From: Caryophanales bacterium UBA1424
GTDB taxonomy: Bacteria > Bacillota_I > Bacilli_A > RFN20 > CAG-826
DNA length: 15,377 nt
Reading direction: 5' to 3'
NCBI GenBank assembly: GCA_002329705.1
Contig: DCUC01000010.1
Coordinates: 1 to 15,377, forward strand
The notes below the pieces were generated by a model. It was not told where the DNA came from. It did no database searches and saw only the letters and a program-made list of their open reading frames with translations. The translations under genes and the position numbers were made by a program. Shown here piece after piece: positions 256-15,377 of this stretch. Numbering within the stretch: the first letter of the stretch is position 1; each line of letters begins with the position of its first letter.

Positions 256-265
256 GAGGAATCAC

Positions 266-1864: not shown

Positions 1865-1881
1865 CTGCCGCAGTATAATGC

Positions 1882-1910
1882 TTAGAAAATCACCGCAAAT
1901 GTCGTATACT
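1882..1910 (+). promoter_or_regulatory. Candidate sigma-A promoter for the zinc-ribbon/amidohydrolase genes
   Basis: TTAGAA at 1882-1887 and TATACT at 1905-1910 are separated by 17 nt. Transcription would begin near 1917, just before the AAGGAG at 1924-1929. The -10 box is good, the -35 box is weak, and there is no strong competing promoter in the 73-nt gap. Confidence 0.4.
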
Positions 1911-1937
1911 ATACTTATCTTATAAGGAGATTTTCCT

Positions 1938-2060
1938 ATGCAAAAATATCGTTGCCTTAGATGCGGGCAGATCGTCGTGCCAAACGAAGACGGAACATGC
2001 CCGGTTTGCGGCGCTCCCAAAGAAAAACTTCGTCCGCTTCCGGAACCGAAAAAACAATGA
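1938..2060 (+). CDS. 40-residue stand-alone rubredoxin-like zinc ribbon protein
   Basis: This small gene reads ATG at 1938 to TGA at 2058-2060 and has a clear AAGGAG at 1924-1929. The product has two cysteine knuckles, YRCLRCG (Cys6, Cys9) and CPVCGAPKE (Cys21, Cys24), followed by a proline/lysine tail. The spacing and the CPVCGAPK knuckle closely resemble the rubredoxin-like domain found at the C-terminus of rubrerythrins, which binds one iron or zinc through four cysteines. Here it stands alone without the ferritin-like diiron domain. It could act as a small electron carrier in oxidative-stress defence, or simply as a structural zinc ribbon. It lies 41 nt upstream of the amidohydrolase and probably shares its transcript. 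The function is inferred from the fold only. Confidence 0.75.
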   Translation: MQKYRCLRCGQIVVPNEDGTCPVCGAPKEKLRPLPEPKKQ

Positions 2061-2101
2061 TATGCTTTGCTTCTTGAGCATATTTATAAGGAGGATTTGA
2101 A

Positions 2102-3382: not shown

Positions 3383-3409
3383 CCTATTTATAATCATATC
3401 GTTATGAAA

Positions 3410-3445
3410 TGACCTCCAAATATTTTAATATTTATGCGGAGGTTA
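3410..3445 (+). promoter_or_regulatory. Hairpin that encloses the ribosome binding site of the lactate dehydrogenase gene
   Basis: TGACCTCC (3410-3417) pairs with GGAGGTTA (3438-3445) over 8 bp, including one G-T pair. Inside it AAATAT (3418-3423) pairs with ATATTT (3428-3433), leaving a TTTA loop and a 4-nt bulge, ATGC (3434-3437). The 3' arm contains the GGAGG that serves the ATG at 3452. In RNA this would hide the Shine-Dalgarno sequence. There is no following T-run, so it is not a typical terminator. A TATAAT at 3389-3394 could be a -10 box for a local transcript, but no good -35 accompanies it. Confidence 0.5.
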
Positions 3446-3451
3446 TTTACT

Positions 3452-4408
3452 ATGGAAAACCGCAAAGTTGTCATCATCGGAGACGGCGCCGTCGGCTCAT
3501 CGACCGCCTTTGCTCTCTTGCAAGGTCAAAGTGTTAACGAAATCATCATCATCGATATAAATAAAAGCAAAGCCGAAGGCGATGTCTTGGACATGCAGCA
3601 CGGCATCTCATTTGTCTCGCCGAAAATTTTAAAGGCCGGAGACTATCGAGATTGTCAAGATGCCCACATCATCATCATCACGGCCGGCGTCGCTCAGCGC
3701 GATGGCGAAACGCGCATCGACCTGCTTAAACGAAACGTCAAAGTGTTCGATTCGATCATCGAAGGCATTCGTCCTTATCTTGATGAAGAGGTTATCGTCT
3801 TGGTCGTTACCAATCCTGTCGATATTTTATCTTACTATGTAAACAAGAAACTTAATCTGGCCCCCGGCCGTGTCATCGGAAGCGGGACGGTCCTCGACAC
3901 TTCGCGCCTGAAATACTTAATCAGCGAAGATACCGGCGTCGATCCGCGCAACGTCCATACCTACGTCGTCGGCGAACACGGCGACAGCGAAGTCGCCACT
4001 TTTTCAATTACGACGATCGGCGGCGTCAATCTGGAAGACTACTGTGCGAGCTGCAATCGCTGCGCCTGCCACGGCAAGCTGAAGTTTGAAGAATTACTCG
4101 ACGAAGTTAAACGCGCCGCCTACGATATCATCTCCAAAAAAGGCGCGACATACTATGCCGTCGCCCTCGCCGTCGCCCGCATCGTTGAAGCGATCGTCAA
4201 TAACACAAATAGCATTCTGACCGTGTCCTCGTTGATTGAAGATGCTTATGACGGACGCATTTATGACGTTTATCTTTCGCTGCCTTCCATCGTCAACCGG
4301 CAGGGAGCGTCACGGCTTTTGACACCGAAGTTTTCGAAGCAGGAAATCGACGATCTGGTCAAGTCGAGCGAGCATCTGAAAAATAGTATTCGCGAATTGG
4401 GCTTGTAA
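3452..4408 (+). CDS. ldh: L-lactate dehydrogenase
   Basis: The 318-residue NAD-dependent enzyme converts pyruvate to L-lactate and regenerates NAD+ in fermentation. The Rossmann motif GDGAVG is at 10-15. AGVAQRDGETR carries Gln82, the residue that marks lactate rather than malate specificity, and Arg88. VLDTSR supplies Asp149 and Arg152, and GEHGDSE supplies the proton-relay His176. An upstream in-frame ATG at 3434 would give 324 residues, but it lies before the GGAGG at 3438-3442, so ATG 3452 with a 9-nt spacer is the better start. Residues 198-206 contain four cysteines in a C-x2-C-x2-C-x-C pattern, which is not part of the catalytic set. A strong terminator follows. The gene stands 69 nt downstream of the amidohydrolase and may be separately controlled by the hairpin over its ribosome binding site. 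Confidence 0.9.
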   Translation: MENRKVVIIGDGAVGSSTAFALLQGQSVNEIIIIDINKSKAEGDVLDMQHGISFVSPKILKAGDYRDCQDAHIIIITAGVAQRDGETRIDLLKRNVKVFDSIIEGIRPYLDEEVIVLVVTNPVDILSYYVNKKLNLAPGRVIGSGTVLDTSRLKYLISEDTGVDPRNVHTYVVGEHGDSEVATFSITTIGGVNLEDYCASCNRCACHGKLKFEELLDEVKRAAYDIISKKGATYYAVALAVARIVEAIVNNTNSILTVSSLIEDAYDGRIYDVYLSLPSIVNRQGASRLLTPKFSKQEIDDLVKSSEHLKNSIRELGL

Positions 4409-4414
4409 AAATAG

Positions 4415-4447
4415 AAAGTGCGACTTATGCGGTCGCACTTTTCTTAT
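4415..4447. terminator. Bidirectional rho-independent terminator between ldh and the convergent lipoprotein gene
   Basis: AAAGTGCGAC (4415-4424) pairs perfectly with GTCGCACTTT (4432-4441) around a 7-nt loop. A T-rich tail follows on the plus strand. On the minus strand the stem is followed by a run rich in T (complement of AAAAATAG). It therefore fits termination of both converging genes. The minus-strand stop codon (4444-4446) lies at the edge of the stem. Confidence 0.85.
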
Positions 4448-5553
4448 TCTAGAACGCTTGTCGCAAGCGGCAGGCTGTAATCAAGAAACGCTCTTATGAG
4501 CGGATCATGATAAAGGGCGGCTTTCTCGTGCTTCCAAGTCACATTTGCCCCATCGATATCAACATCGGCGGCAGGAACTTCTTTAGCGACTAAAATTGGA
4601 TCGCCGACAAAATCGGTTAAGTATGAAAGAGAATTTTCTCTTTCCTGAGAATAAAAACTTTCGGTCACTTCATATACGGCGGGATTCGCGCTTATCGTCA
4701 GCACATCGTTAAGATAAACCGATTGTGCTTTGATAATCGACCCGTTCGTGTCAATCCCATTTGGCTCGACATATTGGGCGGTCGGGACAAAGCCAGTCCC
4801 GTAGCCAAGAGTGGCGTTATTAAGCGCGGAGAGACCATAGGTGTCTTTAAAGCCTTGCCATTGGTTTTCATCATAGACACCACTTTTAAGTTTGATGCCG
4901 TCAACATCCGTGTCTAATAGATAAAGATTATTCATTGTGGCTGCGTTTTCGCGCGCATAGCTTTCAAGAAAATTTTCGCGAAGATATGTCGATTCCGTCT
5001 CATCATCATAATAAATGACGGTAAAACTCGAATCTTGGGCATATAAGTTCGTAAGCTTAGTGAGGTTGATGTCGATGATCGTCGGAAAAACGATCAACTC
5101 TTTCATATAAGTCGCAAATGAGTCCTTGCTGCCCCAAATCTTGTGGGTTGAGTTGTATGGGCGGTTTTCTTTGATGACGCCGTCTTTAAAAAGGCCTAAG
5201 GTTTGTGATGAACTGATAAAATCAAGGCCATACGAATCGCGCTTGGCGTTATCATCGTCAAAGAATTCGGAAAAATGCACGGTGTAGACGATGAGATTAT
5301 TGGCTTTGCGGTAAGGCATCAGGATTGAATCGCGGAAACTCGTCCAGCAGGTGCAGGGCGAATTCGGCGTCGAAAATACCAAAAAATTATCTTTGTCTTC
5401 TATTTTTTCGACGTACTGCTCATAACTTAAAGCGACAAGTTCATCTTCGAGCGTCCCAAACAGGAGCGGAGTTTTGTTCTTGCTTACATCGCAGCCGGCA
5501 AGTAGCGAAGCGGTTATGCTCAAGGCGGTGATTACTAATCCAAGGCGTTTCAT
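4444..5553 (-). CDS. Lipoprotein with a CxC thioredoxin-like segment, function unknown
   Basis: The 369-residue product starts with a lipoprotein signal peptide: MKR, a hydrophobic core and the lipobox LLAGC with the modified cysteine at 21. An upstream in-frame ATG would add ten residues, but GAGGG precedes the ATG whose first base is 5553, so that start is preferred. The segment at about 45-110 looks like a thioredoxin fold: a strand FLVFSTPNSP, then Cys67-Thr-Cys69-Trp, a helix and a strand LIVYTVHF. The CxC replaces the usual CxxC. A second strand-rich region resembling another thioredoxin-like unit starts near 160. The protein would be anchored on the outer face of the membrane. It may be a surface thiol-disulfide protein, or a scaffold that has lost redox function. 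I do not recognise a named family. It is monocistronic between a terminator and the divergent pot operon. Confidence 0.65.
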   Translation of the reverse strand: MKRLGLVITALSITASLLAGCDVSKNKTPLLFGTLEDELVALSYEQYVEKIEDKDNFLVFSTPNSPCTCWTSFRDSILMPYRKANNLIVYTVHFSEFFDDDNAKRDSYGLDFISSSQTLGLFKDGVIKENRPYNSTHKIWGSKDSFATYMKELIVFPTIIDINLTKLTNLYAQDSSFTVIYYDDETESTYLRENFLESYARENAATMNNLYLLDTDVDGIKLKSGVYDENQWQGFKDTYGLSALNNATLGYGTGFVPTAQYVEPNGIDTNGSIIKAQSVYLNDVLTISANPAVYEVTESFYSQERENSLSYLTDFVGDPILVAKEVPAADVDIDGANVTWKHEKAALYHDPLIRAFLDYSLPLATSVLE

Positions 5554-5572
5554 AAATGTCCCTCGAGATAAT

Positions 5573-5578
5573 ATTATA
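5573..5578 (-). promoter_or_regulatory. Candidate -10 box of the lipoprotein gene
   Basis: On the minus strand this reads TATAAT and would start transcription about 10-15 nt before the ribosome binding site of the lipoprotein gene. No close match to TTGACA is found at 16-18 nt upstream; TTGTCG is 20 nt away. The call therefore rests on the -10 alone. Confidence 0.35.
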
Positions 5579-5811
5579 TTCATCGCTTGCTAAATATGCG
5601 ACAAATAACATTTTTCGATTTTTGAAAGTGCGTGATACGGAGCCCGGAAAAATGCCGTAAAAAAGTCAGAAAAAAAGGAGAAAGACTTCTTTTGAATTTA
5701 TGCGACCGAAAACAATTTCAAAAAAGGTGCGGAAAAAAACGCTTACTAAGTTAAACAAATATTGCGATGCCGTCGAATAAATTTGCAGAAACCGAACTTT
5801 CAAAAAACAGG

Positions 5812-5890
5812 GTGAAAATATTTTCATTTTTTCTCGATTAAAATTTGTTGTATTTTCACGCGATTTCTTCTATATTTTATTCGTGAAAAT
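5812..5890 (+). promoter_or_regulatory. Three GTGAAAAT half-sites around the pot promoter (candidate operator)
   Basis: GTGAAAAT occurs at 5812-5819 and 5883-5890 on the plus strand and at 5852-5859 on the minus strand. The first copy belongs to the perfect 14-bp palindrome TGAAAATATTTTCA (5813-5826). The other two form the 9-bp inverted repeat ATTTTCACG (5852-5860) and CGTGAAAAT (5882-5890), which flanks the -10 box and overlaps the predicted transcription start. The arrangement suggests a dimeric DNA-binding repressor, perhaps with looping. The regulator is unknown. Confidence 0.5.
5848..5876 (+). promoter_or_regulatory. Sigma-A promoter of the potABCD operon
   Basis: TTGTAT (5848-5853) and TATATT (5871-5876) have an ideal 17-nt spacer. 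The transcript would start near 5883, giving a leader of about 60 nt with GAGGTG at 5928-5933 before the potA ATG. Confidence 0.65.
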
Positions 5891-5941
5891 TTTCGGGCCC
5901 GTTCGCCTTGAAATAAACACGGCTAGCGAGGTGAACAATCA

Positions 5942-7456
5942 ATGTCTAAAAATGAAACTATTATCAGCCTAAAAAATGTTTCCAAGCAATTTGACGGCAC
6001 GCTCGTCGTCGATGCTTTTAATCTCGACATCAAGCGCGGAGAATTTGTGACGATCCTCGGGCCATCCGGCTGCGGAAAAACGACAACCTTGCGCATGATT
6101 GCCGGCTTTGAGACGCCCTCAAGCGGAGAAATATTGCTCAACGGCACGGATATTTCCGTACTTCCCCCTTATAAACGTCCGGTCAATACTGTCTTTCAAC
6201 GCTATGCCCTCTTTCCCCACCTTGATGTCTACGATAATATCGCCTTTGGTTTAAAACTTAAAAAGATTAACGAGACCTACACCGATAAAAACGGCGAAGA
6301 GAAAGTCCGATGCCGTCATCTGAGTATTGAGGAAATCGACGAAAAAGTCGCCAAAGCCTTAAAGATGGTCGACCTGGAAGAACTCGAAGACCGCGATGTG
6401 CAGACGCTTTCCGGCGGCCAGCAGCAAAGAGTGGCCATCGCCCGTTGCATCGTCAATGAACCAAAGATTTTATTACTCGATGAGCCCTTAGGAGCTCTCG
6501 ATCTCAAGATGCGCAAAGATATGCAACTCGAACTTAAGGCCATGCATGATAAATTGGGCATCACTTTTATCTATGTCACCCACGACCAAGAGGAAGCCCT
6601 GACGATGTCCGATACGATCGTCGTCATGAAAGACGGCGTCATTCAGCAGGTCGGTACACCGATGGACATCTATAATGAACCCGCCAATGCTTTTGTCGCC
6701 GACTTCATCGGAAATTCGAATATTTACAATGCGACGATGGTCGGACCAAAAGTCGTGCGCTTTATCAATGCCAACTTCCCGTGCGATGACGATTATCCGC
6801 TCAACGAAAAAGTCGATGTTGTCATCCGCCCCGAAGACGTCGAAATCGTCGCCAGCGGCAAAGGCATGGTCGAAGCCAAAATCGTCAATAAAATTTTTAA
6901 AGGAGTGCATTTTGAGTATGTCGTGATGGTCGGAAAGAATGAAGTTGTCGTGCAAAGCACGAAGGACTTTCCCGAGGCCGAACCGATCGCCCTTATCATC
7001 GATTCGGAAAGCATCCATGTCATGAAGAAAGAATTCACGATCAACAGTTTCTATGACGCCTGGATCAACAAAAACAATCAAGTCGTCATCGGCAATATCG
7101 CTTTTGATTGCGATGTGACAAAACTCGTCCCCCAATCAACGCTTGATCAAGATGGCTATGTCGTCAGCAAAAAAGGCGTGCGTTACGACTTTAACGATGC
7201 CGAAGTCGTCGCCGAGATTCAGTTAAGCGATATTGAACTCTCCGATGATATCAGCCAGGGTCAGACGACGGGAACGGTTGTCTCCATGCTTTACATCGGC
7301 GACCACTATCAGTACACGGTCCGCACCGAAGAGGAAGAAGATTTTGTCGTCGACACCCAGTATTTATTTAACGAAAACGATGTCGTTTCCATCAACGTTG
7401 CGCCGCAGCACATCTTGCTTCGCGTCAAAGGAGATATTGCTAAATATGAACTTTAA
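5942..7456 (+). CDS. potA: Spermidine/putrescine ABC transporter ATPase PotA, extended form
   Basis: The protein is the ATPase that drives polyamine import. All ABC elements are present: Walker A GPSGCGKTT at 40-48, Q-loop glutamine 86 in VFQRYALFPH, signature LSGGQQQR at 156-163, Walker B ILLLDEP at 176-182 and the switch His214 in VTHDQEEA. At 504 residues it is much longer than typical PotA proteins of about 350-380. Two additions explain this. One is a polar insertion of about 20 residues near 109-130 in the helical subdomain. The other is an enlarged C-terminal regulatory region, in which one TOBE-like block lies at about 290-360 (RPEDVEI and after) and a second at about 440-498. The ATG at 5942 follows GAGGTG at 5928-5933. 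It overlaps potB by 11 nt. The transporter identity is supported by the PotB, PotC and PotD genes that follow. The duplicated regulatory region is inference. Confidence 0.9.
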   Translation: MSKNETIISLKNVSKQFDGTLVVDAFNLDIKRGEFVTILGPSGCGKTTTLRMIAGFETPSSGEILLNGTDISVLPPYKRPVNTVFQRYALFPHLDVYDNIAFGLKLKKINETYTDKNGEEKVRCRHLSIEEIDEKVAKALKMVDLEELEDRDVQTLSGGQQQRVAIARCIVNEPKILLLDEPLGALDLKMRKDMQLELKAMHDKLGITFIYVTHDQEEALTMSDTIVVMKDGVIQQVGTPMDIYNEPANAFVADFIGNSNIYNATMVGPKVVRFINANFPCDDDYPLNEKVDVVIRPEDVEIVASGKGMVEAKIVNKIFKGVHFEYVVMVGKNEVVVQSTKDFPEAEPIALIIDSESIHVMKKEFTINSFYDAWINKNNQVVIGNIAFDCDVTKLVPQSTLDQDGYVVSKKGVRYDFNDAEVVAEIQLSDIELSDDISQGQTTGTVVSMLYIGDHYQYTVRTEEEEDFVVDTQYLFNENDVVSINVAPQHILLRVKGDIAKYEL

Positions 7457-8240
7457 GCGTAAATATCTGGCCATCCCGTATAGCCTTTTCTTGGCGCTTT
7501 TTGTCATCATACCGATCCTTTTGATCGTCTACTATGCCTTCTCTAATGCCGACGGGCAAATTTCATTTGATTCGCTCGTCCGTTTCTTTTCTTCGACGAC
7601 CAAACTGAATGTCTTGCTCGTCTCCTTTTTCATCGGCATCCTCAATACCCTTTTGTGTCTGATCATCGGCTATCCTCTCGCCTATTTTCTGGCCCGTAAG
7701 CAATACAACACAAATACCGTTTTAGTTTTGCTTTTTATCATGCCGATGTGGATCAATTTCGTGTTGCGGACGGGCGCCACTCGCGATTTGCTCACGTGGT
7801 TTGGCATCAATGGCGGACAATATCCCTATTTGGCGACGATGATCGGCATGGTCTATAACTTCTTGCCGTTTACCATCTTACCTCTTTACTCGACGATGCT
7901 TAAACTCGATCAGAGCCAAATTGAAGCGGCAGCGGACCTCGGCGCCAACCCTTTTCAAGTGTTTACCAAATCAATCCTCCCGCAGTCCTTGCCCGGCATC
8001 GTCTCGGCATCGACAATGGTCTTCATGCCGACGATGTCAAGCTATGTCATCTCTGATGTTCTTTCCGAAGGAAAAATAACGCTATTTGGCAATTCAATCT
8101 ATCTTAATTTCTCAAGTTCGCAGTGGAACGATGGCTCGTTCATGGCTTTGATCATGCTGGCGATTGTCGGCGTCACCTTGCTCATTTCCCGTCGCTTTAA
8201 TAAAGATGATTTTGCCTCGCGAGGTAGCAACCTATGGTAA
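7446..8240 (+). CDS. potB: Spermidine/putrescine ABC transporter permease PotB
   Basis: The 264-residue integral membrane protein has about six hydrophobic helices, beginning with YSLFLALFVIIPILLIVYYAF at about 12-32. It carries the ABC permease coupling motif EAAADLGANPFQVFTKSILPQ at about 160-180, which docks on PotA. The frame continues upstream inside potA, but the first residue of a sensible permease is the ATG at 7446, preceded by AAAGGAG at 7427-7433. Its start overlaps the potA stop by 11 nt, indicating translational coupling. The length matches PotB of other bacteria (about 275). The pair with PotC forms the heterodimeric channel. Identity as PotB rather than another type I permease rests on position and similarity. 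Confidence 0.88.
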   Translation: MNFKRKYLAIPYSLFLALFVIIPILLIVYYAFSNADGQISFDSLVRFFSSTTKLNVLLVSFFIGILNTLLCLIIGYPLAYFLARKQYNTNTVLVLLFIMPMWINFVLRTGATRDLLTWFGINGGQYPYLATMIGMVYNFLPFTILPLYSTMLKLDQSQIEAAADLGANPFQVFTKSILPQSLPGIVSASTMVFMPTMSSYVISDVLSEGKITLFGNSIYLNFSSSQWNDGSFMALIMLAIVGVTLLISRRFNKDDFASRGSNLW

Positions 8241-9097
8241 AAAGCAAAAAACTCTTCGCGAGCATCTATGTCTATCTCATATTGTTTTTGATGTATCTTC
8301 CGATTCTCGTCTTAATCGCATTTTCTTTTACCGAGGCGACGAACATCGGCGTCTGGACAGGTTTTTCATTAAACTTGTACGCTCGTCTTTTTCAAAGTCA
8401 GGAGATTATGGTCGCTCTTGGCAACACCCTTATCATCGCCTTTATCAGCGCCGCGATTTCGACGCTATTAGGAACCGCTGGAGCCATCGGAGCTTTTTAC
8501 AGTCGCAAGCGCACCCTCAAAGCCATCGAAGGCGTCACTCAGATTCCGATTGTCAATGCTGAAATTGTCATGGCATTATCCTTAACCGTCTTATTCGTCT
8601 TTGTCGGCAGCGTCATCTTTCGCGGACAATCGATCTTCGGTTTCTGGACTCTGCTCATCGGCCATGTCGTCTTGTCGGTGCCGTTTGTCTACATCTCGGT
8701 CCGCCCGAAATTGATGCAGCTTGATCCGCATCTATACGAGGCTGCTCTTGATTTGGGTGCCACTCCGCAAAAAGCCTTGTGGAAAGTCATTATTCCGCAG
8801 ATTATGCCGGGTATCCTATCAGGCTTTCTGCTGTCATTGACATTGTCGCTTGATGATTTTATTATCACGGCTTTTACCAGAGGCACGGGTCTCCTTAATG
8901 GAGAAGGGACCATCGAAACCTTATCGACGCTCGTCCAAGCCAAGATTAAGCGCGGGCCGATTCCGCCGGAAATGCGGGCGCTGACGCTCATTATCTTCAT
9001 CGTTGTCTTGCTCGTCGTCGTCGGTATTACTATTTATCGCAACAAAACCAAAAATGTGAAAAAAATTCGCAAGGGGAGGGAAAACCATGAATTTTAA
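8234..9097 (+). CDS. potC: Spermidine/putrescine ABC transporter permease PotC
   Basis: The 287-residue polytopic membrane protein is the second permease of the polyamine importer. The N-terminal helix (IYVYLILFLMYLPILVLIAF, about 11-30) is followed by further membrane segments. The coupling loop EAALDLGATPQKALWKVIIPQ lies at about 169-189, and SLDDFIITAF at about 205-214 is characteristic of PotC-type permeases. The ATG overlaps the potB stop by 7 nt (ATGGTAA) and has a GAGGT-like site just upstream. A very basic tail after the last helix ends inside the start of potD, which overlaps by 11 nt. This tight packing points to equal expression of the subunits. Confidence 0.9.
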   Translation: MVKSKKLFASIYVYLILFLMYLPILVLIAFSFTEATNIGVWTGFSLNLYARLFQSQEIMVALGNTLIIAFISAAISTLLGTAGAIGAFYSRKRTLKAIEGVTQIPIVNAEIVMALSLTVLFVFVGSVIFRGQSIFGFWTLLIGHVVLSVPFVYISVRPKLMQLDPHLYEAALDLGATPQKALWKVIIPQIMPGILSGFLLSLTLSLDDFIITAFTRGTGLLNGEGTIETLSTLVQAKIKRGPIPPEMRALTLIIFIVVLLVVVGITIYRNKTKNVKKIRKGRENHEF

Positions 9098-10679
9098 GAA
9101 GACATTGGCCGGAACATCAGCTGTTTTATTCTCTGCGCTTTTAATCGCCGCCTGTAGCGGTAATCAACCGCATGAAGGCGGTAGTCAAGTTCTCCGCATC
9201 TTGAACTGGGAAGACTACATTTATCTCAACGACCCCGAGAACGGCTATGAGGCCAAAAATTTAGTCGATCAATTTGAAGATTTTATCATGGACACCGAAG
9301 GAATTGAAGTCGATGTCGTTTACGACACATTTGATACCAACGAGACGATGCTCAACTCCTTGCAGACGGGTAAATCAGTATACGATCTCGTCTGTCCGAG
9401 TGACTACATGATTCAGAAGATGATTGCTAACGACATGCTCGAACCGCTTGATGATGCGGCGGCTAACATTCCCAATTACGAAACGTTTGCCTCGCCTTAC
9501 TTAAAGTCAATTTTTGATAATCTCGAGGCGACTAACGGCGTCACCCAAGAAGTTCATTCGGTCTCGGAATACGCGGTTGGATATATGTGGGGTACGTTTG
9601 GTATTTTATACAATCCGACATATGCGACTTTTGCGGACCGCGGTCTATCTTCCGACGATGTGATGAGTGATATGGAAGACTGGAATTCCCTTTGGAATGT
9701 CGATTATAAGGATACAATTTCGGTCAAAGATTCAATGCGCGACACATACTCGGTCGGCATCATGCGTGTCTACGACGAAGAAATCAGAACTCTGCAGGAT
9801 ACATATCTTGACGAAGCGAAAGCCGAATATGATCCCGCTTTATACAACGCACAGCTGACTGATATTTTCAACCGTTCAGATGCCGAGACGGTTGCCGCCG
9901 TCAAAGAGGAACTTCTTAAACTTAAAGAAAATATTTACGGCTTTGAAAACGATTCGGGAAAACAAGACATTGTCACTGGTAAAATTGGTATTAATCTCGC
10001 CTGGAGCGGCGATGCCGTCTACGCGATGGATCAGGCTGATGAAGAAACCGAAACCGAGCTCTATTACAACATGCCGGAAACCGGCGGAAATATCTGGTTT
10101 GACGGCTGGGTCATGCCCAAAAGCGATTCTTTAAATAAAGAATTGGCTCAGAAGTTTTTAAATTTTGTCTCGGATCCGGTCAATGCCGCTCAAAATATGG
10201 ACTATATCGGCTACAGCTCGTTTATCGGCGGTGAAGATATCAACACCCTTGTCCATGAGTGGTATGACGTTCGCGAAGATGAGTGGGAGACGCCGATTGA
10301 CGAGTGGAAACTCGCCAACGACATCACCGATGACTACATCGCCTATGATTTGACCTATTTCTTTGGCGACACTGTCGATACCGAGACGATTATCTATATC
10401 GAAGAAGATAGCGTCGGCCGTCAGCTCTATGCCCAATATCCCGAAGCGGACATGATTCCGCGCCTTTCTTTGATGCGCGATTTCGGCGATAATAATCGCT
10501 ATATTTTGGCGATGTGGGAAGAATTTAAAGCCAGTTCTTTACCGGGCTGGGCAATCGCTCTCATCGTCGTCGGTGTCCTCGCCGTAGCCGGGGTCGGAGG
10601 CTTCTTTTTATATCGCAAGAACCTCGCCAAAAAGAATCGGAGCGCCCGCCGCCAGCAAGCCGCTTCTTCACGGCGCTGA
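9087..10679 (+). CDS. potD: Polyamine-binding lipoprotein PotD with an added C-terminal membrane helix
   Basis: This is the extracellular spermidine/putrescine-binding component. A signal peptide ends in the lipobox LLIAAC with Cys23 as the lipidation site. The mature protein opens with VLRILNWEDYIY, and DTNETMLNSLQTGKSVYDLVCPSDY fits the PotD binding cleft region. NLAWSGDA and GGNIWFDGWVMPKS lie in the second lobe. At 530 residues it is far longer than E. coli PotD (about 348). The length comes from internal insertions, an acidic C-terminal extension and a hydrophobic helix at about 486-509. A strongly basic cytoplasmic tail rich in Arg and Lys follows. The protein thus appears held in the membrane at both ends. 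The ATG at 9087 follows GGGGAGGG at 9073-9080. It is the last gene of the operon, and no strong terminator is visible before the tRNA promoter. Confidence 0.9.
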   Translation: MNFKKTLAGTSAVLFSALLIAACSGNQPHEGGSQVLRILNWEDYIYLNDPENGYEAKNLVDQFEDFIMDTEGIEVDVVYDTFDTNETMLNSLQTGKSVYDLVCPSDYMIQKMIANDMLEPLDDAAANIPNYETFASPYLKSIFDNLEATNGVTQEVHSVSEYAVGYMWGTFGILYNPTYATFADRGLSSDDVMSDMEDWNSLWNVDYKDTISVKDSMRDTYSVGIMRVYDEEIRTLQDTYLDEAKAEYDPALYNAQLTDIFNRSDAETVAAVKEELLKLKENIYGFENDSGKQDIVTGKIGINLAWSGDAVYAMDQADEETETELYYNMPETGGNIWFDGWVMPKSDSLNKELAQKFLNFVSDPVNAAQNMDYIGYSSFIGGEDINTLVHEWYDVREDEWETPIDEWKLANDITDDYIAYDLTYFFGDTVDTETIIYIEEDSVGRQLYAQYPEADMIPRLSLMRDFGDNNRYILAMWEEFKASSLPGWAIALIVVGVLAVAGVGGFFLYRKNLAKKNRSARRQQAASSRR

Positions 10680-10705
10680 CATTTTTTGAAGTAATTTATT
10701 ACTTA

Positions 10706-10734
10706 TTGAAGGTTCAAAAGCCATTTGCTATAAT
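10706..10734 (+). promoter_or_regulatory. Strong promoter of the tRNA cluster
   Basis: TTGAAG (10706-10711) and a perfect TATAAT (10729-10734) are 17 nt apart, and TG two bases before the -10 gives an extended -10 element. Transcription would start at about 10741, only a few bases before the mature tRNA-Cys. Confidence 0.8.
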
Positions 10735-10744
10735 TACTTGCGCT

Positions 10745-10818
10745 GGTTCCTTAGCCAAGTGGTAAGGCAATTGACTGCAACTCAATGATCGTCGGTTCAA
10801 CTCCGATAGGAACCTCCA
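10745..10818 (+). tRNA. tRNA-Cys (anticodon GCA)
   Basis: The acceptor stem GGTTCCT pairs with AGGAACC. The anticodon stem ATTGA/TCAAT holds the loop CTGCAAC with anticodon GCA. The T-loop TTCAACT is normal and CCA is encoded at 10816-10818. The gene is separated from the next tRNA by 68 nt that contain a second promoter. Confidence 0.93.
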
Positions 10819-10830
10819 TTTATTTCTTAC

Positions 10831-10860
10831 TTGTATAATGTGAACTGCCTGGTTTATATT
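10831..10860 (+). promoter_or_regulatory. Internal promoter upstream of tRNA-Arg
   Basis: TTGTAT (10831-10836) and TATATT (10855-10860) are 18 nt apart, and both boxes are identical to those of the potA promoter. Transcription would begin near 10867, just ahead of the GC-rich hairpin and tRNA-Arg. Confidence 0.5.
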
Positions 10861-10867
10861 ATATGAG

Positions 10868-10882
10868 CCGCCATCTTGGCGG
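10868..10882 (+). other. GC-rich hairpin in the leader of tRNA-Arg
   Basis: CCGCCA and TGGCGG pair perfectly over 6 bp around a TCT loop. No T-run follows, so it is not a terminator. It sits 4 nt before tRNA-Arg and may mark the 5' end of the transcript from the internal promoter or guide precursor processing. Confidence 0.5.
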
Positions 10883-10886
10883 ACAC

Positions 10887-10963
10887 GCGCCCGTAGCTCA
10901 ACTGGATAGAGCGTTAGACTACGGATCTAAAGGTTACGGGTTCGACTCCTGTCGGGCGCGCCA
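10887..10963 (+). tRNA. tRNA-Arg (anticodon ACG)
   Basis: The acceptor GCGCCCG/CGGGCGC, D-stem GCTC/GAGC, anticodon stem TTAGA/TCTAA with loop CTACGGA, and T-loop TTCGACT are all intact. The anticodon ACG would be deaminated to ICG and read CGN codons. CCA is encoded. Confidence 0.95.
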
Positions 10964-10967
10964 GTGT

Positions 10968-11044
10968 CGGGATGTAGCGTAGCTTGGTATCGCGTCTGCT
11001 TTGGGAGCAGAAGGCCGCAGGTTCAAATCCTGTCATCCCGACCA
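10968..11044 (+). tRNA. tRNA-Pro (anticodon TGG)
   Basis: The acceptor CGGGATG/CATCCCG has the C1-G72 pair typical of bacterial tRNA-Pro. The anticodon stem TCTGC/GCAGA carries the loop TTTGGGA with anticodon TGG, and the T-stem GCAGG/CCTGT (one G-T pair) has the loop TTCAAAT. It starts only 4 nt after tRNA-Arg and encodes CCA. Confidence 0.95.
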
Positions 11045-11074
11045 TTACTATCCAAGCTCTGATTAGGAGTTTTA

Positions 11075-11148
11075 GGGGATATAGTTAAACGGGATAACAC
11101 TAGCTTTGCAAGCTTGAATTCGGAGTTCGATTCTCCGTATCTCCACCA
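11075..11148 (+). tRNA. tRNA-Ala (anticodon TGC)
   Basis: The acceptor GGGGATA pairs with TATCTCC and contains the G3-U70 wobble that defines alanine identity. The loop TTTGCAA carries anticodon TGC. The D-stem GTTA/TAAC and T-stem CGGAG/CTCCG are complete and CCA is encoded. The anticodon stem CTAGC/GCTTG has one T-T mismatch at its second pair. The order Arg-Pro-Ala agrees with Bacillus-type arrays. Confidence 0.9.
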
Positions 11149-11156
11149 AACGAAAT

Positions 11157-11233
11157 GGCTGCGTAGCTCAGTTGGCTAGAGCAATCGGTTCATACCCGGT
11201 GGGTCGAGGGTTCAAATCCCCCCGCAGCTACCA
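11157..11233 (+). tRNA. tRNA-Met, elongator (anticodon CAT)
   Basis: The loop TTCATAC has anticodon CAT. The acceptor GGCTGCG/CGCAGCT has a G1-U72 wobble, and the fourth and fifth pairs are U-A and G-C. These differ from the C-G pairs expected of tRNA-Ile2. The anticodon stem lacks the three consecutive G-C pairs of initiator tRNA, so this is elongator Met. It precedes the Ile2 gene as in Bacillus arrays. Confidence 0.88.
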
Positions 11234-11238
11234 TTTTC

Positions 11239-11314
11239 GGACCAATAGCTCAACGGTTAGAGCTCCCCGCTCATAACGGGTAGGTTCTAGGTTCGAATCC
11301 TAGTTGGTCCACCA
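11239..11314 (+). tRNA. tRNA-Ile2 (gene anticodon CAT, expected lysidine-modified)
   Basis: The anticodon reads CAT, but several features point to the minor isoleucine tRNA that TilS modifies to read ATA. The acceptor is GGACCAA/TTGGTCC, with C4-G69 and C5-G68 pairs recognised by TilS, and G1-C72 pairs normally. The position between Met and Ser matches Bacillus-type arrays, where Ile2 occupies this slot. CCA is encoded. An annotation program would probably call it Met from the anticodon alone. Confidence 0.8.
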
Positions 11315-11319
11315 GACGT

Positions 11320-11410
11320 GGAGGCTTACCCAAGCGGCTGAAGGGGTCGGTCTTGAAAACCGATAGAGGATGCAAGTCCTGCTAGGGTTCAAATCCCTAA
11401 GCCTCCGCCA
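11320..11410 (+). tRNA. tRNA-Ser (anticodon TGA)
   Basis: The 91-nt gene has the long variable arm expected of serine tRNA (about 11366-11387). The acceptor is GGAGGCT/AGCCTCC, the anticodon stem TCGGT/ACCGA carries TGA, and the T-stem is TAGGG/CCCTA with the loop TTCAAAT. G73 and CCA are encoded. It is the last tRNA of the cluster. Confidence 0.95.
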
Positions 11411-11423
11411 TTCACGATACTTA

Positions 11424-11455
11424 AGTCATATCCGCGGGTATGATTTTTTATTTAT
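11424..11455 (+). terminator. Rho-independent terminator of the tRNA cluster
   Basis: AGTCATATC (11424-11432) pairs with GGTATGATT (11437-11445) around a CGCG loop, giving a 9-bp stem with two G-T pairs. The run TTTTTT ends at 11449, followed by ATTTATTT. It lies 13 nt after tRNA-Ser. Confidence 0.7.
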
Positions 11456-11484
11456 TTAAGCCGATTTTTATATAATAAGATGTA

Positions 11485-11512
11485 TAACATATTGACAACC
11501 ATCAATGTGTTA
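11485..11512 (+). promoter_or_regulatory. Inverted-repeat operator of the arsR operon
   Basis: TAACATATTGA (11485-11495) and TCAATGTGTTA (11502-11512) are complementary at 10 of 11 positions around a 6-nt centre. The TTGA...TCAA core and AT-rich arms are typical of ArsR/SmtB-family operators. The site covers the -35 region of the arsR promoter, as expected for autorepression. Confidence 0.75.
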
Positions 11513-11521
11513 GAATAGTGT
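11492..11521 (+). promoter_or_regulatory. Promoter of the arsR operon, apparently giving a leaderless mRNA
   Basis: A perfect -35 TTGACA (11492-11497) lies inside the operator. The best -10 at allowed spacing is TAGTGT (11516-11521, 18 nt); TAGAAT at 11511-11516 looks better but leaves only 13 nt. Either choice starts the transcript at about 11522-11529. The arsR ATG is at 11528 and no Shine-Dalgarno sequence lies before it. Confidence 0.5.
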
Positions 11522-11527
11522 TTATGT

Positions 11528-11866
11528 ATGGCAAAAATAAATGATGAGCATTTTATTCAACTCATGAAAATACTTAGCGATACAACGCGTTTTGCGATCG
11601 TTCGCCTGCTTGCTCAAAAAGGCAGTCTTTGCGCTTGTAAGATTCTCGATTGCTTGCATATATCGCAAGGCACTTTATCGCATCATATGAAGGTTTTAAC
11701 AAACGCGAAAATTGTCAGCTGCAGCAAAGATGGTAAATGGCGGCATTATCGCCTTCTTCCACATTCCTTATACAAATTATCGACTTTTATTCAAGAGATC
11801 ACTCTTATTCCTTCCGAGACGACCGAAGAAAACTGTGCATGCTCAATTGATGTGATAGGCAAATGA
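11528..11866 (+). CDS. arsR: ArsR/SmtB-family metalloid-sensing repressor
   Basis: The 112-residue winged-helix protein would bind the inverted repeat just upstream and leave it when As(III), Sb(III) or a related ion binds. The fold signature is clear: ILSDTTRFAIVRLLAQKG at about 15-32, then LCACKILDCLHISQGTLSHHMKVL at 34-57, where HISQGTLSHHMKVL forms the recognition helix. A beta wing GKWRHYRL follows at 69-76. Cys35 and Cys37 sit at the LCAC position where classical ArsR proteins carry the metal-binding ELCVCD motif. Cys42 lies nearby, and a second CAC pair is at 103-105 near the C-terminus. No ribosome binding site precedes the ATG at 11528. The stop overlaps the permease start by 4 nt (ATGA). 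Arsenic is the likeliest inducer, but other thiophilic ions are possible. Confidence 0.88.
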   Translation: MAKINDEHFIQLMKILSDTTRFAIVRLLAQKGSLCACKILDCLHISQGTLSHHMKVLTNAKIVSCSKDGKWRHYRLLPHSLYKLSTFIQEITLIPSETTEENCACSIDVIGK

Positions 11867-12981
11867 CCAAACGAAAAATAACTATTATTATCGCTTCAAG
11901 TGTGGTGGCACTATTAGCGGCCGCTAACATTTTGGTTGGCATTATTGTTTCTTGGGATGCCGCAAAAGCGCCATGGAATTTTATTAGTTCGCAGATTTTG
12001 GGCATGAAGTGGCTCAACGATTTGATATGGAAAATTGTGCAAGCCGTCAGTGGCGTACACAGTTTAGAGACATGGCAATACAAAGTTCAATCGTCTATCC
12101 AGTTTTTTGTCTATGACATTATCAAAATTACCGTACTATTATGCTTTTTAATCTTTGTAATATCGTACATTCAATCGTATTTTCCGCCCGAACGCACAAA
12201 GAAAATATTGAGCAAGTATCACGGAATCGGCGCCAATATTATCGGGGCATTACTCGGAACCGTCACTCCTTTTTGCAGTTGTTCTTCTATCCCGATTTTC
12301 ATTGGATTTACACGCGCCGGTCTATCGACTGGAGTAACGTTTAGCTTTCTCATTTCAAGTCCGTTGGTGGATCTTGGCTCCTTAATGCTTCTGGTCGGGG
12401 TTTTTGGCTGGCCAATCGCAATTGCTTACGTCGTCGCTGGCCTCATTATTTCTGTCATTGGCGGAACGATTATTGAAAAAACCGGACTGGGAAAACATGT
12501 CGAAGACTTTGTTTCAAAGGGCGAGAGCGTCGATATAGAAAGTCCGGAATTAACAAGGAAAGATCGCATAATTTACGCTCGCGACCAAATGTGGGGAACA
12601 TTTAAAAAAGTATTTCCTTATATGCTGATTGGCGTGGCGATCGGAGCGGCAATTCATAATGTTATTCCGAGAGAATGGATTGAAAACATTTTAGGATCCG
12701 AAAAATGGTATGGAGTGCCTTTGGCGGCCCTTCTTGGCGCACCGATGTACGCCGATATTTTCGGGACATTGCCGGTCGCCGAAGCCCTTTACAACAAGGG
12801 CGCTGGCCTCGGCACAGTCTTGACTTTTATGATGAGTGTGACAGCTTTATCTCTTCCGTCATTAATCATGCTGCGGAAAGCCGTTAAACCCAAGTTGGTT
12901 ATCGCTTTTTTAATCATTGTTCTCATCGGAATTATTGCTATCGGCTATCTATTTAATTTGTTTGGGTACTTTTTCATATAG
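11863..12981 (+). CDS. ArsP/YraQ-type permease (UPF0718/DUF318), putative metalloid exporter
   Basis: The 372-residue membrane protein has about eight hydrophobic segments split by a polar loop near 205-245. The hallmark TVTPFCSCSSIPI at about 133-145, with Cys138 and Cys140, matches the conserved cysteine motif of the permease family that includes ArsP. ArsP is known to export trivalent organoarsenicals, and other relatives are linked to metal efflux. A second family block, LLGAPMYADIFGTLP, lies at about 290-304. Immediate 4-nt overlap with arsR shows coupled translation and supports a metalloid role. The isoleucine codons favour ATT (about 31 ATT, 14 ATC, 7 ATA by hand count) more than the upstream potC gene. 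A gene symbol is withheld because the transported compound is not shown by sequence. Confidence 0.82.
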   Translation: MTKRKITIIIASSVVALLAAANILVGIIVSWDAAKAPWNFISSQILGMKWLNDLIWKIVQAVSGVHSLETWQYKVQSSIQFFVYDIIKITVLLCFLIFVISYIQSYFPPERTKKILSKYHGIGANIIGALLGTVTPFCSCSSIPIFIGFTRAGLSTGVTFSFLISSPLVDLGSLMLLVGVFGWPIAIAYVVAGLIISVIGGTIIEKTGLGKHVEDFVSKGESVDIESPELTRKDRIIYARDQMWGTFKKVFPYMLIGVAIGAAIHNVIPREWIENILGSEKWYGVPLAALLGAPMYADIFGTLPVAEALYNKGAGLGTVLTFMMSVTALSLPSLIMLRKAVKPKLVIAFLIIVLIGIIAIGYLFNLFGYFFI

Positions 12982-12991
12982 GAGGAAAAAT

Positions 12992-13333
12992 ATGAAAATT
13001 CAAGCTTTAGGCGGATGTTGCAAAAAATCAACTTCAAATTATGAAGCAATCGTTCAAGCCGTTAAAGAGTTAGACCTCAAAGTTGAGGTCGAACACGTCA
13101 CTGATTTTGACGAAATCATGAAGCTAGGTGTCATGTCAACACCCGGCCTTGCCATTAATGGCAAAATACTTTCAGTTGGCAGAGCACTCAATGTCATGCA
13201 GGCAAAAGAATTAATTAACAAGGTTATGAAGAGCGAAAGCGAATGCTCCTGCGGCGAACGATGTGATTGTGGCGATAATTGCGAATGCGAAGATGGCTGT
13301 GATTGCGCCGATGACCCTTCTTGCTGCAAATAA
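12992..13333 (+). CDS. Small thioredoxin-fold protein with a metallothionein-like Cys tail
   Basis: The 113-residue protein starts at ATG 12992, 6 nt after GGAGG (12981-12985), and the upstream extension of the frame lies inside the permease. Residues 1-80 match the TM0996/MTH895 family of tiny glutaredoxin-like proteins: a MKIQALG strand, a helix, the VEVEHVTDFDEIMKLGVMSTPGLAINGKI segment with its cis-proline TP (Thr50-Pro51), and a last helix. The active site reads Cys9-Cys10-Lys-Lys-Ser13, so the second cysteine of CxxC is serine. Residues 85-112 hold ten cysteines, with CxC pairs at 85/87, 91/93, 97/99 and 103/105 and a final pair at 111/112. Such a tail would bind soft metal ions. The likely job is to hand thiol-bound metal or arsenic to the permease, or to buffer it. 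This is inference from context. Confidence 0.8.
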   Translation: MKIQALGGCCKKSTSNYEAIVQAVKELDLKVEVEHVTDFDEIMKLGVMSTPGLAINGKILSVGRALNVMQAKELINKVMKSESECSCGERCDCGDNCECEDGCDCADDPSCCK

Positions 13334-13365
13334 TTATCAATAAATATTATTGCTCTCTAATACTT

Positions 13366-13374
13366 TGCTAAAAT
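13366..13374 (+). promoter_or_regulatory. Candidate extended -10 promoter for the DUF2804 gene
   Basis: TGCTAAAAT at 13366-13374 is an extended -10 element (TG-N-TAAAAT). No good -35 exists at 16-18 nt; ATTATT at 13346-13351 is the closest. The transcript would start near 13381, ahead of the GGAGG at 13391-13395. Confidence 0.4.
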
Positions 13375-13401
13375 AGAAATGCAAATCATTGGAGGTTTTC
13401 T

Positions 13402-14424
13402 ATGCAACATTTATTAGACCAGGGTCCGCTTTTAAACGAGGAAGGCAACTTAACAGAATCTGGCTATGCTTTTTCGTTAATCAAAAAATATTCTCGCGAT
13501 GCCATTAAAGCGCCTGCTATGCGCATCAAAGAATGGGATTACTACTATGTCGGAAACAATCATGTCGGCGTAGCTTTGACGGTGGCCGATAACGCCTATA
13601 TGTCGCTCGTCGGAGCGACGGTTTTTAACTTCGACAAAGCCTATGACAAAACCAAGAACGTGATGGGCTTGCTTCCCAAAGGGAAAATCATGATGCCCTC
13701 TTCTTCAGCAAGTGGCGATGTCATCTTTAACACCAAGAATTTTTCCTTCCATTTCACTCATGAAAACGGCAGGCGTCACCTCGTCTGCGAGATGAAGAAC
13801 TTCGATGGTGAAAAGCCCTTTCGCTGCGACATATATCTCGAGGAAACAATCAAAGATTCAATGGTGATTGCCACGCCTTTTAATAAACCGAAACACTTCT
13901 ATTACAATCAGAAGATCAATTTACTCAAAGCCAACGGTTACGCCAAAGTGGGCGATGAGACATACGATTTATCAAAAGACACATGGGGCGTTCTCGACTG
14001 GGGTCGCGGAGTGTGGACATATAGTAACACTTGGTACTGGTCTTCGATGAGCGGTACCTACAAGGGCAAGAAGATCGGATTCAATCTCGGCTATGGTTTT
14101 GGCGACACAAGTGCCGCCAGCGAAAATATGTTCTTTTACGATGATAAGGCTTATAAGTTTGAAGATGTTAAATTTGATATTCCAATCGCCAGCAATGGAA
14201 ATGATGATTTCCTTAAACCATGGAAGTTTCGCAGTAAAACCGGTGACATTTCTTTGACTTTTGAACCGATATTAGATCGTTTCAGCAATACGAATGCTCT
14301 CATCATCAAGTCGATTCAGCATCAGGTATTCGGCAAATTCCACGGCTATTTTGTCATCGAAGGCAAGCAGGTATATTTTGAAGACATCCTCGGGTTTGCC
14401 GAAAAAGTCAGGAATTGCTGGTAA
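13402..14424 (+). CDS. DUF2804 family protein, function unknown
   Basis: The 340-residue protein matches the DUF2804 family by its ordered signature segments. LLNEEGNLTESGYA lies near the start, followed by IKAPAMRIKEWDYYYVGN at about 35-52. MMPSSSASGDVIF lies near 97-109, SMVIATPF near 153-160, GVLDWGRGVWTYSNTWYW at about 196-213 and LGYGFGDTSAASENM at about 229-243. It has no signal peptide or membrane helix and is beta-strand rich. The family has no established biochemical role. The conserved Trp/Asp cluster in the middle suggests a binding or catalytic pocket, possibly lipocalin-like. ATG 13402 follows GGAGG at 13391-13395. The return to GTC/ATC-rich codons indicates it belongs to the host background and not to the preceding ars-type operon. 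Confidence 0.85.
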   Translation: MQHLLDQGPLLNEEGNLTESGYAFSLIKKYSRDAIKAPAMRIKEWDYYYVGNNHVGVALTVADNAYMSLVGATVFNFDKAYDKTKNVMGLLPKGKIMMPSSSASGDVIFNTKNFSFHFTHENGRRHLVCEMKNFDGEKPFRCDIYLEETIKDSMVIATPFNKPKHFYYNQKINLLKANGYAKVGDETYDLSKDTWGVLDWGRGVWTYSNTWYWSSMSGTYKGKKIGFNLGYGFGDTSAASENMFFYDDKAYKFEDVKFDIPIASNGNDDFLKPWKFRSKTGDISLTFEPILDRFSNTNALIIKSIQHQVFGKFHGYFVIEGKQVYFEDILGFAEKVRNCW

Positions 14425-14438
14425 TTTTGCGATTTTTT
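14413..14438 (+). terminator. Weak terminator after the DUF2804 gene
   Basis: AATTGC (14413-14418) pairs with GCGATT (14429-14434) around a 10-nt loop, with one G-T pair. A run of six T (14433-14438) overlaps the 3' arm. The 5' arm lies in the last codons of the gene. The stem is short, so this is a low-confidence call. Confidence 0.3.
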
Positions 14439-14496
14439 CGTGTCTCTTTTTAGATAATAAGTTTACAATAAACATTAGTTAATAAGGAGCAGACTC

Positions 14497-15377
14497 ATGA
14501 AAATTAACTCCACTTTTACCGGGGAAATCGTCCCGCGTGCAACCAAATGGATTTATTCGGCGACGGCGATGGGAAGAGATGCAGCCTATACTTTAATCAG
14601 TTTATTCTTAATCGCCTATATTCAGTTCGCGGCTCCGATTGGCTATGTTAATGACGTTTATAGTCGAGGCGATTACTTCGCCCAGTTTGGCGTCATTTCC
14701 ATCATCGTCATCATCGCCCGCATCTGGGATGGCCTCAATGATCCGATCATGGGTTTTATCATCGAGCGCTGCCACTTTAAGATGGGTAAATATAAACCTT
14801 GGATTCTAATTGGCGCGATCACTAATACCGCCGTCATGCTCGTCTTGTTTTTAGCCCGCCCGCAAGGCTGGGCTTATGTCGCCCTTTTCGGAGTCTTCTA
14901 CTTCCTTTGGGACATCACATACACGATGAACGACATCGGCTATTGGTCGATGCTTCCGGCTTTGACAAGCGACGAAAAACAGCGCAACGAAATCACGACG
15001 ATTATGTCGATATTTATAAGCATCGGAGCCTTCGCTGTCGGCGGTGTTGTGCCTTTGACGGTCGCCAATAATGCCGTCCAAAACTATGGCATCATCGCTA
15101 TCGTCGTCTCAGTCGTCTTTCTTCTCTCGCAGTTAATTCTTGTTTTCTTTGCAAAAGAATCGGCCCGTAATCTCGAGCAGGAAAAAATTTCGCAAAAGAC
15201 AAAATTCGGGGATATGTTCCGCCTGATGAAGACCAACGATCAACTACGTTGGATTGTCATCGTCATCCTCATCTACTATATCGCCTCGAACATTCTTAAT
15301 GGCCTTGGTCTCAACTATTTCTACTTCATGTTCGGCTACGGAAATGACGCCGGCGAAGGCGGAAATATTCAGTTCCT
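14497..15377 (+). CDS. GPH-family sugar:cation symporter, N-terminal part (runs off the window)
   Basis: The frame opens at ATG 14497, 7 nt after AAGGAG (14484-14489), and stays open for 293 codons to the edge. The protein has long hydrophobic helices and the signature of the glycoside-pentoside-hexuronide:cation symporter family within the major facilitator superfamily: RIWDGLNDPIMGF followed by a basic loop ending GKYKPWILIG. The segment FYFLWDITYTMNDIGYWSMLPALTSD, with downstream charged loop EKQRNEITT, also fits the family. It would import a sugar or glycoside with Na+ or H+. The substrate is not readable, and the C-terminal half is outside the window. No clear promoter was found in the 72-nt gap; TACAAT at 14464-14469 and GATAAT at 14453-14458 lack good -35 partners. 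Confidence 0.82.
   Translation, partial: MKINSTFTGEIVPRATKWIYSATAMGRDAAYTLISLFLIAYIQFAAPIGYVNDVYSRGDYFAQFGVISIIVIIARIWDGLNDPIMGFIIERCHFKMGKYKPWILIGAITNTAVMLVLFLARPQGWAYVALFGVFYFLWDITYTMNDIGYWSMLPALTSDEKQRNEITTIMSIFISIGAFAVGGVVPLTVANNAVQNYGIIAIVVSVVFLLSQLILVFFAKESARNLEQEKISQKTKFGDMFRLMKTNDQLRWIVIVILIYYIASNILNGLGLNYFYFMFGYGNDAGEGGNIQF

Follow-up and report, generated by a model that had tools for sequence, protein, structure and literature searches.

ArsD (PF06953, NF033727; structures 3KGK, 3KTB and 3MWH) is the As(III) metallochaperone of ArsAB. The PF01451 (LMWPc) family includes the thioredoxin-coupled ArsC as well as other phosphatases, and bacterial metallothioneins combine dense CxC motifs with probable disorder in the absence of metal. 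In the accessible text of two reports, the chaperone site of ArsD is formed by Cys12, Cys13 and Cys18 (PMC4562236, PMC12607644). Members of another thioredoxin-like family occurring in ars operons, MTH895/ArsE, were read as redox proteins, possibly acting for ArsC, in the accessible part of a 2010 survey (PMC2963123). In the literature as seen from titles and abstract openings, with few subscription journals covered, neither the cysteine-rich tail nor the CxxC-less branch described below was treated.

Here, a 15,377-nucleotide stretch of Caryophanales bacterium UBA1424 (GCA_002329705.1, contig DCUC01000010.1, positions 1 to 15,377; hereafter the window) was found to encode a protein of the MTH895/ArsE family in which the CxxC motif is absent and a cysteine-rich tail follows the folded domain. 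The loss of CxxC together with the presence of a vicinal cysteine pair points to metalloid binding rather than to redox chemistry. By analogy with ArsD, we give an even chance to the reading in which the tailed protein would hold a metalloid, as ArsD does, on behalf of an ArsP-type permease, the tail providing extra thiol capacity.

The gene (12992..13333, + strand) runs from an ATG at 12992 to a stop codon at 13331-13333 and encodes 113 residues, with cysteines at positions 9, 10, 85, 87, 91, 93, 97, 99, 103, 105, 111 and 112. The tail comprises residues 85-113 (13244..13330, + strand; the codon of residue 85 is 13244-13246 and that of the final residue ends at 13330) and consists of four CxC pairs followed by CC. 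Recomputing the frame and the coordinates returned exactly the ten-cysteine tail described in the initial annotation, including its six-residue period (spacings of 6, 6 and 6). Ten cysteines in 29 residues correspond to a binomial P of 1.7e-13 at the cysteine frequency of the 12 other window genes joined (44/4383 residues), where 29-residue stretches contain 4 at most. The annotation had also proposed the expansion of a 6-codon unit, which is in line with relatives carrying three or four CxC at spacing 6 but is less well borne out by the DNA, where the repeat copies are 63% and 74% alike, partly as a consequence of the encoded residues. A frame error or an assembly artefact was considered and ruled out, since tails of the same kind are present in P0003 (82% identical, 6 contigs) and in P0004 to P0012. 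Among relatives, the tail is kept and expanded. P0002 is 99% identical to the window protein; it is given with no source and may come from the window's own cluster.

The only Pfam match of the tailed protein is Thioredoxin_3 (PF13192, residues 1-75, 75.9 bits), and the NCBIfam model TIGR00412 (“MTH895/ArsE family”) scores 68.9 bits, above its cut-off of 62. Hence, the annotated thioredoxin fold is retained and is of the MTH895 kind, and the domain normally ends where it had been expected to end, near residue 80: it stops at about 76-80 in 83/83 CxxC relatives, all devoid of a cysteine tail. The likeness to metallothionein stands as a resemblance, with no metallothionein family among the Pfam matches. 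No other PF13192 match was found in the window's genome (assembly 88.9% complete). AlphaFold2 modelled residues 1-80 with mean pLDDT values of 93-97 per ten-residue block and residues 84-113 with values under 50, and the tail is predicted to be disordered without ligand. Foldseek ranked 1ILO first (E 1.2e-4) and placed ArsD 3kgk chains at ranks 17 and 39 (rank 17: E 0.02, TM 0.54 by target). The best 50 rows of VIA-align were mainly thioredoxins and KaiB-like folds, with 1ILO in row 33 and ArsD absent; the fold alone therefore does not single out ArsD.

The domain had been annotated as a thiol-transfer domain, a view that its active site does not support. The corresponding motif of MTH895 (1ILO) is CANC; alignment to it and to CxxC relatives shows that the second cysteine is replaced by Ser13 and that the residue preceding the first one has become Cys9, resulting in a vicinal pair, C9-C10-K-K-S13 (13016..13030, + strand), instead of CxxC. 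Ser13 is at least 90% conserved in a 20-member set (A2). For the comparison of relatives, identical entries among 223 sequences (127 protein records, window included, and 96 locus rows) were merged, which left a set of 214 distinct sequences with that of the window among them. This set is biased towards the query, as it was gathered from protein searches (92; best 120 of 596) and genome loci; from the genome-sample matches beyond the named loci, 40 stretches were added, the remaining weaker ones being omitted. It comprises 125 sequences of the CC type, 6 of the CGC type (C-G-C-x-x-S) and 83 with CxxC. Seven of these 83 (L032, L033, L035, L036, L039, L053 and L054) carry an N-terminal cysteine-rich extension with at least two cysteines, mostly after an LF or IF start and several lysines, which from the sequences appears to be another way of adding thiols to an ArsE-family domain.

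As annotated, the tailed gene is the third of an ars-type operon. The first gene (11528..11866, + strand) encodes a 112-residue ArsR-family repressor with 81.5 bits on NF033788 (cut-off 55), a CAC at 35/37 in the a3 region, another one close to the C-terminus at 103/105, and Cys42; it thus has both a score above the model cut-off and a CxC in the a3 region. The second (11863..12981, + strand), whose start overlaps the end of arsR by 4 bases, encodes a 372-residue ArsP_1 permease (PF03773, 223.3 bits, cut-off 32.3) with the motif TPFCSCSSIP, and an AGGAGG at its end lies ahead of the ATG of the tailed gene. No ArsA gene adjoins the tailed gene in the window. A possible ArsR operator upstream of arsR, TAACATATTGA-N6-TCAATGTGTTA (11485..11512, no strand assigned), has 11-base arms with 1 mismatch and overlaps the -35 hexamer TTGACA of a promoter-like TTGACA-16-AATAGT (11492..11519, + strand). 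The latter, with 10/12 consensus matches, is a consensus match only, because shuffles contain as many such sites (mean 6.2) as the region itself (6). Likewise, 15/200 block shuffles of the region reached the score of the inverted repeat, and therefore the candidate operator is weak taken alone. Similar outer arms with the same 12-base gap occur upstream of arsR in L006 and, in degenerate form, in L004, and other repeats are found at this place in L002, L005 and L028. Elsewhere in the window (4444-5583, - strand), a lipoprotein-like open reading frame of 379 residues with no confident Pfam match has an early NSPCTCW and looks thioredoxin-like by eye.

The operon occupies the interval between tRNA-Ser(TGA) and a DUF2804 gene (window 11320-13402). 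In G001, a genome of the same genus (L125), the tRNA-Ser(TGA), the DUF2804 gene and an MFS gene are in like order; the interval there contains an AAA_14/DUF4143 gene (L125:3478-4830), and the three ars genes gave no tblastn match between the tRNA and DUF2804. In G004 (L126), a shorter interval harbors a YhhN-family gene. At E 1e-8, relatives were found in 6/224 genomes of the family and 7/279 of the order, the window's genome being counted in both. Because of this patchy distribution and of the differing contents of the interval in related genomes, the operon has probably been acquired as cargo in this variable interval next to tRNA-Ser.

The gene context was counted for 96 thioredoxin-like rows from 92 loci, with some genomes represented twice and some rows lying at contig ends. 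Both ArsP and ArsR were present within the stretch for 63 rows, ArsP only for 17, ArsR only for 8 and neither for 8. Fourteen rows belong to the CC or CGC type, and for them these numbers were 8, 2, 1 and 3, respectively; the row with ArsR only is L021 (a truncated GGCC copy), and both genes are missing for L003 and L026, which share one sequence and lie at a contig end, and for L007. Two further CGC-type genes, in L110 and L112, adjoin ArsP_1 genes. The L021 copy (L021:4986-5138, Acholeplasma laidlawii QMP CG1-1743) is a CC-type sequence shortened to 50 residues behind arsR, in a stretch with no ArsP match. The expected co-occurrence of the tail with ArsR and ArsP was observed for the short tails of L002 and L004 and for the long tail of the window, but not for the long tail of L007, where neither an ArsR nor an ArsP match lies in the 10.2-kb stretch and an LMWPc/arsC-like gene (PF01451) is found downstream; for long tails, the context comes from these two loci only, as P0003 to P0017, P0088, P0092, P0095, P0107 to P0109 and P0112 are known here from protein sequence alone. 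Besides, using simple patterns, 58/64 distinct ArsRs were seen to have a CxC in the a3 region. A CC or CxC at the C-terminus was found in the ArsRs of 6/7 CC/CGC-type gene sets versus 13/57 CxxC-type ones (7/8 versus 12/56 if L021 is counted as CC type). The window ArsR has this C-terminal CAC (residues 103-107, window 11834-11848), common in CC-type gene sets, in addition to that of the a3 region, and a dual sensor site is possible.

Regarding the toxicant, arsenic is favoured by several neighbourhoods. Over 88 residues, the window ArsR shares 50% identity with that of L097, a locus where an SBF/ACR3-type permease is encoded together with ArsD and ArsA. In Cetobacterium, an annotated ACR3 gene lies next to the permease, the thioredoxin-like gene and ArsR, and in Acetoanaerobium (L104), a CxxC-type ArsR/ArsP_1/thioredoxin-like set faces arsR-arsD-arsA; the PF01451 gene of L007 points in the same direction. 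These observations bear on an explanation in which the tail would act as a metallothionein-like sponge buffering Cu(I), Zn or Cd, the permease exporting such a metal and not arsenic. The CxC arrays, with a spacing of 6 or 7 and acidic and glycine spacers, do look metallothionein-like, and SO_0444, a Cu/Zn exporter, is among the NCBIfam models nearest to the permease. However, the permease scores only 100.1 bits on SO_0444 (cut-off 300), and the likeness of the window ArsR to that of an acr3-arsD-arsA locus, together with the two related modules adjoining ACR3 or arsDA, makes this explanation unlikely. As candidate identities for the permease, both SO_0444 and SaoE (108.3 bits, cut-off 325) were rejected as being far under their equivalog cut-offs. 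Within arsenic, inorganic As(III) and methylarsenite are considered with no preference, since the ArsP of C. jejuni exports trivalent organoarsenicals and not inorganic arsenite according to the accessible text of one report (PMC6205960), and an ArsR with two conserved cysteines responds to methylarsenite according to that of another (PMC9213503).

The occurrence of tails was then related to the active-site motif. A C-terminal extension with at least two cysteines is present in 83/125 CC and 5/6 CGC sequences, i.e., in 88/131 sequences without CxxC, versus 0/83 with CxxC; at least six cysteines were counted in 22/125, 0/6 and 0/83 sequences of the three types, respectively. In a less query-biased genome sample, with a match in 88/395 genomes and 72 rows examined, a tail with at least two cysteines was found in 3/6 CC-type rows versus 0/66 others. 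In the FastTree tree (212 rows and 72 columns, motif columns excluded, P0089 and L021 dropped), one branch (support 94, not starred) separates all CxxC rows from the others, with 2 changes needed for the three motif labels. The independent-pairs test of motif against tail found 1 pair and thus gives no support for a repeated link. Therefore, the loss of CxxC on one branch and the tail represent one historical association: on this tree, motif and tail appear to be linked by one old event, and the length of the tail appears evolutionarily restless.

Such a distribution could also be expected if the tail thiols stood in for the missing resolving cysteine, the protein being still a reductase, of arsenic species or of the permease, with a swinging tail. 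The tail is long and flexible, cysteine tails at the C-terminus are confined to sequences without the second active-site cysteine, and a redox role of the family in ars operons is what the 2010 survey, in its accessible part, had proposed (PMC2963123). However, 42/125 CC sequences have no tail cysteine at all, and therefore the tail is not essential to the job of the family; in addition, no PF01451 match was found in the window's genome (88.9% complete). We consider this redox explanation decidedly improbable.

Tails in relatives range from none, or ends such as CSC and CCC, up to 14 cysteines. Six-residue units characterize the window's branch (P0001 to P0012) and seven-residue units are found in P0017, P0088, P0095, P0107 and P0109, while P0092, P0108 and P0112 have cysteine-rich tails without regular unit. 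This variability raises the question of whether the tail could be a slippage-prone repeat doing little, drifting under little selection, in which case only the vicinal CC, or some other function of the fold, would matter. Indeed, within the clade without CxxC, a minimum of 14 changes was counted for the tail (at least two cysteines) and of 7 for the long tail (at least six), these counts being rough because 72 columns leave many forks unresolved, and the cysteine columns were significantly better kept (p below 0.05) in only 4/9 pairwise tests. Yet they differed less often than the other tail columns in 9/9 comparisons, as illustrated by P0001 and P0003 (1/11 columns with cysteine versus 11/22 others, p 0.027), and CxC arrays of spacing 6 and spacing 7 stand in separate branches of the tree. 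Drift of this kind is hence held to be quite remote as an explanation.

When residues 74-113 alone served as the query of a protein search, P0002 was both the one candidate and the one match; this result therefore says little on such tails joined to other domains. Among the genomes of the order of G255, searched for relatives of the long-tailed P0107, 2/43 matched, both already known and neither long-tailed. No relative was found in the viral contigs searched; matches with 54-73% query coverage occur in 19 plasmid and 2 phage records, and a relative with 44% identity across residues 3-77 is encoded in a Blautia phage record (PV036434.1:23853-24077, H20). In P0095, P0072 and L004:4749-5267, a ferredoxin-like Fer4 domain is fused to the CC-type thioredoxin domain; P0095 has a long CxC tail as well, and the L004 fusion gene lies directly behind an ArsP gene.

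The layout of the protein was then compared with that of ArsD. In the ArsD of L096, which belongs to a genome of the same class, strand 1 is followed by ALCC, with CC at residues 9-10, and by helix 1; the vicinal pair after strand 1 is thus C9-C10 in the window protein and in this ArsD alike. The same ArsD ends in CCC..CC, and a C-terminal cysteine tail is present in 4 of 6 aligned ArsDs and absent from 2. On TIGR00412 (cut-off 62), L096 reaches 27.4 bits and two other ArsDs only 14-16 bits; on the Pfam ArsD model PF06953, the relative P0099 scores 26.4 bits, just under the cut-off of 27. When 20 A2 members were scanned up to E 1, ArsD was matched by 4/20 (best E 0.00064) and DUF1525, an unrelated-looking family, by 2/20 with a better E (0.00026); as DUF1525 and others also match these members, single weak matches mean little. 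Profile comparison with ArsD gave 94.4% over 62 columns for the CC set and 95.7% over 38 columns for the CxxC set, the cysteine pair falling outside the alignment in both. Taken together, these comparisons indicate that the tailed protein is remotely related to ArsD. Since the profiles skip the cysteine pair and ArsD is matched no less well by the CxxC set, convergence may account for the CC found in both proteins.

The identification of the tailed protein as an ArsD was rejected: it has no match to PF06953 or NF033727, the latter giving 120-133 bits (cut-off 90) with three true ArsDs, and the third ligand Cys18 (pair +5) corresponds to Ser15. Neither was any PF06953 match found in the window's genome. 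Since the layout and the remote kinship are alike while the ArsD models failed and the third cysteine is missing, we infer that the protein would work like ArsD without being one. A function of the tail in inducer sensing, making the protein a second regulator of the operon, would have a parallel in the C-terminal pairs Cys112/113 and 119/120 of ArsD, which are predicted to be regulatory and without which ArsD did not bind its promoter in the accessible text of one report (PMC4562236), but it is highly improbable, given that no DNA-binding domain is among the Pfam matches of the protein, that the operon already has an ArsR and that an array of ten cysteines seems beyond sensing needs.

In the ArsD-like reading that we prefer, the toxicant would enter the cell and be sensed by ArsR, which would let go and open the operon, the permease and the tailed protein being made together. 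The latter, no longer a disulfide reductase, would grip a trivalent thiophilic metalloid, i.e., As(III), Sb(III) or an organic form such as methylarsenite, through C9-C10, where helix 1 begins. The CxC tail, being flexible and acidic, could give extra or third thiol ligands and raise the capacity like a small metallothionein, which would keep the free toxicant low until export, and the metalloid would finally be passed on to the ArsP_1 permease. More tentatively, a branch of the ArsE family may have become a separate metalloid chaperone, dropping CxxC, acquiring an ArsD-like pair and building CxC arrays several times from 6- or 7-residue units, in the service of a secondary ArsP-type permease without the ArsA ATPase.

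Thioredoxin-like proteins of ars operons have so far been taken as redox helpers, as far as the accessible part of the 2010 survey tells (PMC2963123), and one branch of them has ArsD-like thiols and no CxxC. This branch makes ArsE function testable with few cysteine mutants, and it hints at the existence of metallochaperones that serve secondary metalloid permeases. Moreover, as one domain occurs naturally with tails of 0 to 14 cysteines, a ready set is at hand to measure the contribution of a metallothionein-like tail.

Compared with the MTH895/ArsE family (TIGR00412, PF13192, 1ILO), the window protein has the same domain, the same length to residue 76, the same TPGL region and the same place in ArsR-ArsP_1 gene sets, whereas CxxC is absent and a vicinal CC and a cysteine-rich tail are present. 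With bacterial metallothioneins, the tail shares the dense CxC motifs and the probable disorder without metal; unlike them, it is an appendage on a folded domain, with no family match, and its binding of metal is a proposal. Finally, the protein appears to resemble ArsD in its thioredoxin-like fold, and it has in common with ArsD a vicinal CC after strand 1, a C-terminal cysteine tail that is variable and arsenic-type neighbours. It differs from ArsD in failing the ArsD models, in having no cysteine at +5 and a longer CxC array, and in its gene adjoining that of a permease instead of ArsA.
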